From a bacterium (GTDB taxonomy: Bacteria; Patescibacteriota; Minisyncoccia; Phycocordibacterales; GCA-002787175), in NCBI GenBank assembly GCA_030699905.1, contig JAUYKQ010000009.1:1-41212 (forward strand): DNA of 41,212 nucleotides. Reading direction: 5' to 3'. Positions 10,271-41,212 of the stretch are shown here, in pieces. The position numbers and the translations under genes are program-made. A model generated the notes under the pieces. That model did no database searches. It was not told the origin of the DNA and worked only from the letters and a program-made list of their open reading frames with translations. The stretch's first letter is position 1. The number at the start of each line of letters is the position of its first letter.

Positions 10271-10333
10271 TTTATGACAGGAACTTTTCCACATCCGGCT
10301 GTCCTTCGGGTAAAAAATACTGAAAGTATTCAT

Positions 10334-10496
10334 GGGTCTGTTACCGAATATCCATTTTGGCTGATTTATCCAAAATTCGGCTACGGCTTGTTTCAAATTT
10401 TTGGCCAATACTTCAGAGCATAAGCCATAAATTTGAAACTTCGCCTCGCACGAATTTTGAAAAAATCAACTCAAAAGCCTATTCGGCAACAGACCC
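10334..10496 (-). repeat. Diverged, inverted copy of the ~160-base palindrome family
   Basis: The ends GGGTCTGTT (10334-10342) and AACAGACCC (10488-10496) are inverted repeats. Inner stems are CAAAATTCG (10371-10379) with CGAATTTTG (10451-10459), and GTTTCAAATTT (10390-10400) with AAATTTGAAAC (10429-10439). Between the stems lie TTCGGCTACGGCTT and CTTCGCCTCGC. Read on the minus strand, these loop sequences match those of the palindrome at 11142-11302 (GCGAGGCGAAG and AAGCCGTAGCCGAA), although the stems differ in sequence. It lies directly upstream of the glycosidase promoter. Confidence 0.75.
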
Positions 10497-10520
10497 TTTA
10501 TGGAAAATTTTTGGCAGCTG

Positions 10521-10661
10521 TGAATTACAAAATACCTGGCTTTACCCCCCCACACGGAAAGCTCCCAAAAAAGTGACCGCTCCAAGGGCGCTTGCCCGGT
10601 CTTAGTCACTTTTTTGTGACTTTCCTCGTGGGGGGGGACGCCTGCCGTATTTTGTAATTCA
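10521..10661. repeat. 141-base palindromic element with poly-C/poly-G arms
   Basis: Perfect 15-base ends TGAATTACAAAATAC (10521-10535) and GTATTTTGTAATTCA (10647-10661) enclose CCCCCCCAC facing GTGGGGGGG. An 11-base perfect inner pair follows: AAAAAAGTGAC (10567-10577) with GTCACTTTTTT (10605-10615). The arms match along almost 57 bases each. The loop is about 27 bases. No coding capacity is seen. Runs of seven C and eight G could also form quadruplex structures. Confidence 0.75.
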
Positions 10662-11006: not shown

Positions 11007-11059
11007 CTTTGAGTTCAAAAACAGGTCTCGCAATAGAAATCCTATTTCATAACTCAAAG
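11007..11059. repeat. Short deletion derivative of the palindrome family
   Basis: CTTTGAGTT (11007-11015) and AACTCAAAG (11051-11059) are perfect 9-base inverted repeats. They equal the terminal sequence of the 161-base palindrome 83 bases away. The inside keeps TTTCAT before the right end but lacks the conserved core. It lies eight bases upstream of the DUF378 ATG. Confidence 0.55.
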
Positions 11060-11141: not shown

Positions 11142-11302
11142 CTTTGAGTTACGAAACTCGCTTCCGATGGATTTCTTTTCAATTTCGAGCGAGGCGAAGC
11201 AAAAATTATGAGGCATATACAGAGTATCTGTTGAATAATTTTTGCAAAGCCGTAGCCGAAATTGAAAAGAAAGACGCGGATTTGGAGTTTCGTAATTCAA
11301 AG
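11142..11302 (+). repeat. 161-base palindromic repeat, complete copy
   Basis: The ends CTTTGAGTTACGAAACTC (11142-11159) and GAGTTTCGTAATTCAAAG (11285-11302) are inverted repeats with 17 of 18 positions matching. Inside, TTTCTTTTCAATTTCG (11172-11187) pairs perfectly with 11257-11272. GCAAAAATTAT (11199-11209) pairs perfectly with ATAATTTTTGC (11235-11245). The stems are split by internal loops formed from AGCGA/GTAGC and GAA/AAA, with GGC/GCC between them. The loop at the tip is 25 bases. A second copy differing at one base begins at 41073. Confidence 0.85.
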
Positions 11303-15271: not shown

Positions 15272-15282
15272 GTGTTTTAGCA

Positions 15283-15323
15283 AAAACCAAAATATTCGTA
15301 CAGTATACGGATTTTTTGGTTTT
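15283..15323 (-). other. Hairpin inside the ATPase operon before subunit A
   Basis: AAAACCAAAA near 15283-15293 pairs with TTTTGGTTTT near 15314-15323, with an inner CGTA/TACG pair. On the minus strand it lies 12 bases upstream of the subunit A ATG. It has weak A/T-rich arms and no strong T run. It could set transcript processing or stability between F and A, but this is only a guess. Confidence 0.4.
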
Positions 15324-15365
15324 AGGCAAGCCCATTTCTCAAATCTTCCGTCAATATGAGAAGCA

Positions 15366-15382
15366 AGTTTCGTAACTCAAAG
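15366..15382 (+). repeat. Terminal remnant of the palindrome family
   Basis: AGTTTCGTAACTCAAAG is the exact reverse complement of the first 17 bases of the 161-base palindrome. Nothing else of the element is left here except a weak TTCTCA/TGAGAA pair (15336-15341 and 15357-15362). It abuts the stop codon of subunit F. Confidence 0.55.
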
Positions 15383-22174: not shown

Positions 22175-22247
22175 GTTGAATAATTTTTGACAAGCCCCAG
22201 CCGAAATTTAAAAGAAAGACGCGGGATTTGGGTCTCGTAATTCAAAG
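22175..22247 (+). repeat. Right half of the palindrome family
   Basis: This stretch aligns without large gaps to 11230-11302, the right half of the complete palindrome. It begins GTTGAATAATTTTTG, keeps AGCCGAAAT and AAAGAAAGACGCGG, and ends TCGTAATTCAAAG. The left half is absent, so it can no longer fold the long stem. It lies 13 bases before the bidirectional terminator. Confidence 0.7.
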
Positions 22248-22251
22248 TCGT

Positions 22252-22295
22252 CAATAAAAAAACGGCTCACACTGGTAGTGTGAGCCGTTTTTTTC
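22252..22295. terminator. Bidirectional terminator between DoxX-like and RRM genes
   Basis: AACGGCTCACACT (22261-22273) and AGTGTGAGCCGTT (22277-22289) form a 13-base perfect stem with a three-base loop. It has an A run on the left and a T run on the right. It serves both convergent genes. Confidence 0.9.
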
Positions 22296-22297
22296 GC

Positions 22298-22576
22298 TTA
22301 GCGATTGAATTCGCGGCGCGGAGGTCTTTCCGCCATCGGGCGGGCCTCATTTACAGTAAGAGTGCGTCCTTCAACTTCTTTTCCATTGAACATGTCAACC
22401 GCCTTGTCGGCGTCGGCATCTTCCATTTCAATGAAACCAAATCCTCTTGAGCGTCCTGTCATCTTATCAGAGATGACATTAGCGGAGAGAACTGATCCTG
22501 CTTGAGCGAAAGTATCGCGCAAGCTGTCAGAAGTCGTAGTGTAGGAAAGATTTCCTACGTACAATTTCTTTGCCAT
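22298..22576 (-). CDS. RRM-type RNA-binding protein
   Basis: A single 92-residue RNA-recognition motif with RNP2 LYVGNL (residues 5-10) and RNP1 RGFGFIEM (residues 44-51), followed by a short Arg/Pro-rich tail (ERPPRREFNR). Single-RRM proteins of this size act as RNA chaperones in cyanobacteria and other bacteria and are often cold-induced. The gene has its own promoter and a predicted leader of about 109 bases, unlike the leaderless genes around it. The strong terminator lies directly after the stop. Confidence 0.93.
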   Translation of the reverse strand: MAKKLYVGNLSYTTTSDSLRDTFAQAGSVLSANVISDKMTGRSRGFGFIEMEDADADKAVDMFNGKEVEGRTLTVNEARPMAERPPRREFNR

Positions 22577-27391: not shown

Positions 27392-27715
27392 TTTGTCATA
27401 TTACTCACGCTGCCATTCCGATTGCTTACTTTTGGGTTTGCAGAGGTCGAGGGGAGCGATATTCAAAGAGTGATTGATCAAAGGGTCGAAGCCTATGTGG
27501 GGTATTAAACAGCTTAATGCGCAATTGCCATGAGGATGAGGAGGTGTTTATTGTGGATCCAGCGGGAACTCAAGCGGCCGGCTTTTGAGTGGTTTCCTTT
27601 TTGGTGGGGCATGGTTATATTGATTGCCTCGTTAGGGATGCTGGTCTTTGACTTTTTGAATTGAATTGGGCTTACAAGTTAACAATCGGAATGGCAGCGT
27701 GAGTAATATGACAAA
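27392..27715. mobile_element. 324-base element with perfect 33-base terminal inverted repeats
   Basis: The left end 27392-27424 (starting TTTGTCATATTACTCACG) and the right end 27683-27715 are exact reverse complements over 33 bases. The element fills the gap between the convergent DsbA-like and helicase genes. Its right end is one base from the helicase stop codon. No clear target-site duplication was found. The length and perfect ends are those of a miniature inverted-repeat transposable element, but no transposase is present. The inside carries one mini-ORF with a strong ribosome binding site and a second short open stretch. Confidence 0.7.
27551..27664 (+). CDS. 37-residue single-helix membrane mini-protein inside the element
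   Basis: A TTG start lies six bases after AGGAGG (27539-27544, within GAGGAGGTG), the best ribosome binding site in the window. The frame encodes a polar start (WIQRELKRPAFEW) and one hydrophobic helix (FWWGMVILIASLGMLVFDFL), then a TGA stop. An in-frame ATG at 27530 would add seven Arg-rich residues, but then the ribosome binding site would lie inside the gene. A GTG at 27553 opens only 11 codons in another frame. Nothing similar is recognised, and real translation is unproven. Confidence 0.4.
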   Translation: MWIQRELKRPAFEWFPFWWGMVILIASLGMLVFDFLN

Positions 27716-41072: not shown

Positions 41073-41212
41073 CTTTGAGTTACGAAACTCGCTTCCGATG
41101 GATTTCTTTTCAATTTCGAGCGAGGCGAAGCAAAAATTATGAGGCATATACAGAGTATCTGTTGAATAATTTTTGCGAAGCCGTAGCCGAAATTGAAAAG
41201 AAAGACGCGGAT
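41073..41212 (+). repeat. 161-base palindromic repeat, second copy cut by the window end
   Basis: The 140 bases present match 11142-11281 at 139 of 140 positions. The only difference is G for A in TTTGC(G/A)AAGCC. The last 21 bases of the element, including the right terminal inverted repeat, lie outside the window. It is in the same orientation as the first copy and directly upstream of rpoB, on the opposite strand. Confidence 0.88.

Follow-up and report, generated by a model that had tools for sequence, protein, structure and literature searches.

Introduction

Miniature inverted-repeat transposable elements (MITEs) of bacteria are usually seen as the empty shells of insertion sequences (IS), with hairpins that are by-products of their repeats. 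As a kind of element MITEs are known (PMC10969869, PMC2229807). The MITE described from Cardinium is a geneless, lineage-specific repeat of about 240 bp, which comes from one IS and has ends matching an IS982-family element (PMC9769881). The Correia/NEMIS, ERIC, RUP and BOX repeats are mostly 100-200 bp long and intergenic, with terminal repeats, target duplications and stable hairpin transcripts, some of which undergo RNase III processing or affect how stable an mRNA is (PMC2229807, PMC3049150, PMC10969869). REP sequences are short, many-copy, imperfect intergenic palindromes linked to Y1 (RAYT) transposases (PMC2817692). Lastly, Rickettsia palindromic elements are mobile palindromes of 105-146 bp with predicted long stem-loops (PMC2229807).

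The elements described here were found in a window of 41,212 nucleotides, i.e. the whole stretch of DNA that was analysed (contig JAUYKQ010000009.1 of assembly GCA_030699905.1, phylum Patescibacteriota, order Phycocordibacterales). By architecture they are MITEs. One of their end classes, class A, is related to IS982-family elements of its order in the same way as the Cardinium MITE is to its IS, whereas the elements here are of about 160 bp, phylum-wide, and have a core common to several end classes. They resemble Correia/NEMIS, ERIC, RUP and BOX in size, terminal repeats, target duplications and intergenic place; however, each of those repeats is tied to particular species or genera, and their descriptions, in the portions of the sources used, come without tested covariation with invariant internal loops or a core across end types. 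The likeness to REPs extends to shortness, copy number and imperfect intergenic palindromy, but where the REP/RAYT system combines a Y1 transposase with the lack of a target duplication, the elements here have target duplications and no Y1 transposase was found in their own genome. Rickettsia palindromic elements, known from Rickettsia, are likened to these elements by description and not by sequence, and no integron attC R-box (GTTRRRY) is evident in the conserved loops.

In the literature covered, to which subscription papers mostly do not belong, we found neither a description of such elements in Patescibacteria nor a MITE whose inside keeps a strand-specific structure, supported by statistics, throughout a phylum and with different end classes. 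MITEs themselves being known, what appears to be new is the phylum-wide, strand-specific folded core across end types. The conserved part is the MITE interior, which keeps one fold on one strand across the phylum while ends and stems change. Such a conserved interior implies that the inside of the MITE has a function and is read by a host factor. For the hard-to-culture Patescibacteria, it also means that a single covariance model suffices to annotate this family of repeats.

Results and Discussion

Elements of the window

Each of the palindromes is a geneless MITE of about 160 bp. Two of them, to which the original prediction ascribed one architecture, are long hairpins that do fold as it described, with folding energies of -88.2 kcal/mol (z -14.2) for the minus strand of 10334-10496 and -81.4 kcal/mol (z -13.6) for the plus strand of 11142-11302, and they are joined by a third copy at 41073-41212 (Table 1). 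The inner 11-bp stems and the other stems differ between the two, as had been noticed, and so do the ends, whereas both palindromes carry exactly the loop strands GCGAGGCGAAG and AAGCCGTAGCCGAA. Ordinary genes flank the elements, namely those for a glycoside-hydrolase-like protein, a DUF378 protein and subunits of an A/V-type ATP synthase. At 22231-22300 of the window, a class-A-like end (3 mismatches) and a weak core match (13.5 bits, E 0.63) are perhaps a decayed copy.

Table 1. Coordinates, strands and evidence for the elements of the window and their parts
Feature	Position	Strand	Evidence
Entire class B element of 163 bp with terminal repeat GGGTCTGTTGCCGAAT	10334-10496	-	sequence and folding
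Folded core, match to covariance model R1, 95.8 bits (opposite strand 28.4)	10354-10474	-	covariance model
5' loop strand GCGAGGCGAAG (GC-GA-GGC-GAA)	10439-10449	-	sequence
3' loop strand AAGCCGTAGCCGAA (AA-GCC-GTA-GC)	10376-10389	-	sequence
Presumed 5-bp target duplication, left copy TTCAT, 4 of 5 positions like the right copy	10329-10333		sequence; 5-bp rule of class B
Presumed target duplication, right copy TTTAT	10497-10501		sequence
Entire class A element of 161 bp with terminal repeat CTTTGAGTTACGAAAC	11142-11302	+	sequence and folding
Folded core, 117.8 bits (opposite strand 38.0)	11164-11282	+	covariance model
Third copy, of class A, truncated where window and contig stop; core match of 110.2 bits	41073-41212	+	sequence and covariance model
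Short palindrome, perhaps a collapsed remnant, with both ends class-A-like (4 and 3 mismatches over 17 positions)	11007-11059		sequence
Possible degenerate copy, with a perfect class A end (15366-15382) next to a weak match to the core (15275-15333; 13.9 bits, E 0.52)	15275-15382		sequence and covariance model

Copy number and distribution

The genome that contains the window is of 0.82 Mb and 98.9% complete. It carries the loop pair in the right spacing 15 times in exact form, compared with no occurrence of the backwards-read pattern that served as control, and 13 exact occurrences are found in one genus mate. Near-identical copies of the element are present at unrelated sites. A covariance model was built from a seed of 15 copies (among 14 of these, 12 come from outside the genus), and gives 34 matches in the own genome and 14 and 42 in the other two genomes of the genus, numbers that include a number of reverse-strand echoes of the same copies. 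In the model search that had been proposed with the original prediction, 60 of the 397 genomes from the order gave matches, as did 36 out of 380 sampled across the phylum. An exact pattern scan of 84,980 species genomes, with the matches judged by their fold, places the true relatives in Yanofskybacteria, Liptonbacteria, Sungbacteria, Azambacteria, Uhrbacteria, Peregrinibacteria and other Parcubacteria; the relatives are thus Patescibacteria, mostly Parcubacteria. The remaining exact-pattern matches, for the most part in Bradyrhizobium and otherwise in further distant organisms, have no like fold and are taken as coincidences in coding sequence. With Rfam 15, no family scored above its gathering cut-off at the elements of the window and ten related loci, the weak matches being mostly microRNA hairpins far below the cut-off.

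Several contigs of genomes G000 and G002 break inside elements (for instance at the window end, 41212), so true copy numbers may exceed the counts. A Yanofskybacteria genome has a copy between its 23S and 5S rRNA genes (L074, 1204-1375); the 23S match of that locus spans about 3.9 kb, and the 23S gene therefore probably carries an insert too. Copies with the same flanks in two genomes (L129 in G689 and L134 in G724) are probably an old insertion shared by descent.

Ends, target duplications and candidate movers

Paired elements are 152-197 bp long, within the size of MITEs (<500 bp, no transposase gene), and have the terminal inverted repeats of MITEs, with arms of 15-20 bp; among the flanking ORFs examined, no match to a transposase was found. 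The ends fall into classes A to F, defined by sequence. Two of these have the fixed-length target duplications of MITEs. In class A (CTTTGAGTTACGAAAC) they are of 7 bp and exact in 7 of 24 cases, where 0.00 were expected; in class B (GGGACTGTTGCCGAAT), to which the 10334-10496 copy belongs, they are of 5 bp and occur in 8 of 16, where 0.20 were expected. For class D (TACCATCCCCAATTAA) the evidence for 3-bp TWA duplications is suggestive: under a strict definition 7 of 8 copies have them, against 3.0 expected, but in a wider set it is 12 of 26 against 6.1. An exact empty site is available for a class B copy in G002, where uninterrupted copies of the host repeat show that TTTAG was duplicated in the insertion, some of the loci listed for this comparison overlapping one and the same copy. 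At collapsed sites only 22-62 bp of fused ends are left (e.g. CTTTGAATTACGAAACTCAAAG at L194:3032-3053), and these sites would represent deletions through the hairpin.

Ends that match those of an autonomous element, a further mark of MITEs, were found for class A only, and in other genomes of the order. IS982-family insertion sequences of the same order have ends (CTTTGAATTACRAAAC) matching class A, together with 7-bp duplications. They include an element of 978 bp with the duplication TTAATAA (L237/L241) and copies with a class-A-type end and a 7-bp duplication likewise (L243, L263), while the copy at L244 has a 6-bp duplication. Their transposase matches DDE_Tnp_1_3 of Pfam. Among NCBIfam models it scores highest with that of IS982, at 109.9 bits, below the cut-off of 130. 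An IS982-like or DDE_Tnp_1 transposase was found neither in the own genome nor in two genus mates, because of which the copies of the genus may be stranded, or their mover may sit in an assembly gap.

Autonomous partners for the end classes other than A were not found, and several candidates were rejected. In 24 genomes no pair of class D ends was seen 1-1.5 kb apart, as an autonomous element would have them, and in the own genus, where a transposase gene was looked for next to solitary ends, the neighbouring ORFs that match Pfam are ordinary cellular genes. The class E end next to an IS5-like gene at L236, which had looked like an autonomous partner, turned out to be a 184-bp element in its own right. 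At L232 a fragment of the IS5 family terminates in a class-E-like end with TAA after it, but the gene is fragmentary near the contig start and a matching left end was not seen.

One core with several ends

One folded core is certainly found with several end sequences, and for two of the end classes it is certain that the duplication lengths differ. With six end classes and one homologous core, the ends must have changed five times or more. A tree of the core, which is poorly resolved with its 116 columns, needs 14 end changes as against the minimum of five, and no shuffle of the labels gave so low a number; AU tests that held single classes together were not significant except for class C (0.049). 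Repeated end exchange is suggested by this distribution. The existing combinations show the core to be a passenger module that would have acquired the ends of several transposons.

Covariation, conserved loops and strand of folding

Two copies in the window could not prove the covariation that was predicted, but the 97 distinct forward copies that remain from an alignment of 110 model matches do so. In an R-scape-style test of the kind that had been called for, with a null in which the substitutions of each FastTree branch are kept and their columns reassigned, 22 of the 39 pairs of the structure are significant at E<0.05, and the single significant pair outside the structure is one column off a true pair. 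Two-sided changes are seen at all 39 pairs, and 93.1% of cells are paired, compared with 34-53% when partners are slid by 1-3 columns; as the model that gathered the copies favours paired letters, these pair counts lean towards structure, a bias that is limited in the set gathered by pattern only (see below).

The expectation that the unpaired parts are kept holds for the central loops (GA, GYA and GAA/NAA), which are more conserved than the stems, and fails for the outermost unpaired positions. GA is present in 98 of 99 copies and GYA in 91 of 99. Mean entropy is 1.00 bit at unpaired and 1.19 at paired positions, and 0.00 and 0.08 at the two positions of GA. The GGC/GCC helix reported between the loops is indeed found in both window copies, but across copies this 3-bp helix may be GAC/GTC, GGC/GCC, GCC/GGC, AAA/TTT, AAC/GTT, GAT/ATC or GCT/AGC.

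If the complementarity of a palindrome is maintained at the DNA level, neither strand is preferred. In the 97 copies, by contrast, there are 283 G·U against 40 A·C oppositions, with an excess of G·U in 92 elements and the reverse in two; therefore selection acts on the folding of one strand. In the pattern-only set, 14 copies not chosen by the model, the numbers are 36 and 2, and in the outer arms, which lie outside the model and include some noise beyond the element, they are 149 and 85. The best copies score 80-137 bits on the marked strand and 33-49 bits on the opposite one. These observations point to one strand being selected to fold, and along with the covariation against a tree-based null and the near-invariant loops they give strong support to the original view that a folded nucleic acid is under selection.

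Role of the core

Transposases of the DDE kind recognise ends as duplex DNA, so that an inner fold common to the elements calls for some other explanation. The G·U pattern makes RNA the first choice, and it is plausible that the fold acts as RNA. A promoter cannot be conserved in the arms, since the arms vary. With respect to flanking genes, 30 elements are antisense, 23 sense, 16 convergent and 7 divergent; this lack of an orientation preference counts against a function borne by an mRNA, which would not predict it. No spanning ORF is present in 86 of 95 elements, and those behind a gene sit close to its stop codon, positions that are as expected for tolerated insertions.

As a whole, we favour the explanation, with a probability of about 0.6, that the element is a MITE moved in trans with a passenger core folded on one strand, which most likely acts as RNA. 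DDE transposases of insertion sequences would move the elements in trans, as is supported for class A and may by extension hold for the other end classes. The core of about 119 nt between the ends has to form, on just one of the strands, a long hairpin with fixed purine-rich internal loops, as covariation, G·U tolerance and loop constancy show; as a passenger module it would pick up the ends of several transposons. Read-through from a neighbouring gene may then yield a core RNA that folds into a compact hairpin; through its GA and GYA loops this could be bound by a cellular factor, or protected from one, and the interaction might improve the survival or spread of the element.

A serious rival, if an improbable one in our estimation, is that the fold acts as single-stranded DNA, the hairpin forming in replication or uptake and a host protein binding its loops to aid copying or protection, with no part played by RNA. 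Strand-specific folding and tolerance of G·T would occur in single-stranded DNA too, elements show no orientation bias relative to genes, and the collapsed palindrome remnants of 22-62 bp suggest a hairpin that forms or slips at the DNA level; however, helices in which G·U outnumbers A·C sevenfold usually indicate RNA, and the DDE transposition inferred from the duplications needs no single-stranded hairpins. Those remnants would also suit an ordinary MITE with neutral loops and stems, whose arms are kept complementary by correction at the DNA level (template switching at the hairpin), as is known for long palindromes. We regard this as very unlikely, because such correction would erase internal loops, which instead are nearly invariant, and predicts equal numbers of G·U and A·C where 283 and 40 are observed, a disparity that already appears (36 vs 2) in the small set gathered without a structure model.

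Diverged stems with fixed loops and a single-stranded fold under selection are also what would be seen if the folded strand were the substrate of a tyrosine transposase or recombinase (as in REP/RAYT, IS200/IS605-like or integron attC-like systems) that leaves the stems free to drift. This is largely refuted by the fixed-length target duplications of 7 and 5 bp and by the identity of class A ends with those of IS982-family elements, and we give it hardly any weight. A search for the Y1 transposase domain PF01797 found none in the own genome (98.9% complete), and the duplications likewise argue against such a mover. Of the suggestion that this is a structure-recognised mobile element, mobility therefore stands, whereas ordinary terminal inverted repeats, duplications of fixed length and the IS982-family match of class A speak against recognition by structure.

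Returning to a passenger core moved by DDE transposases, it is tentatively conceivable that the core is an independent, selfish folded nucleic acid, whether RNA or single-stranded DNA, which lives as a parasite of several unrelated transposases whose ends it acquires time and again, and that it spread through the phylum by loops recruiting a cellular factor. Such a core would be a bacterial counterpart in concept of the RNA-derived SINE elements, but moved as DNA.

Other repeats

The window also holds an element of 324 bp (27392-27715) with terminal 40-bp inverted repeats that are 95% alike and with no relative among the loci compared. A second palindromic repeat, roughly 141 bp long, occupies 10521-10661. 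It is rich in G+C in its middle, lacks the folded core and has ends (TGAATTACAAAATAC) that resemble those of IS982 type; related copies occur elsewhere in the own genome and in G002. A third palindromic repeat, with ends ACCTTGAATTACGAAAT, is found in G002 (L025, about 1370-1680) and also at L001, L222, L070, L077 and L079. Its end is that of the IS982-family element at L247, and one copy of this repeat hosts a class B insertion.
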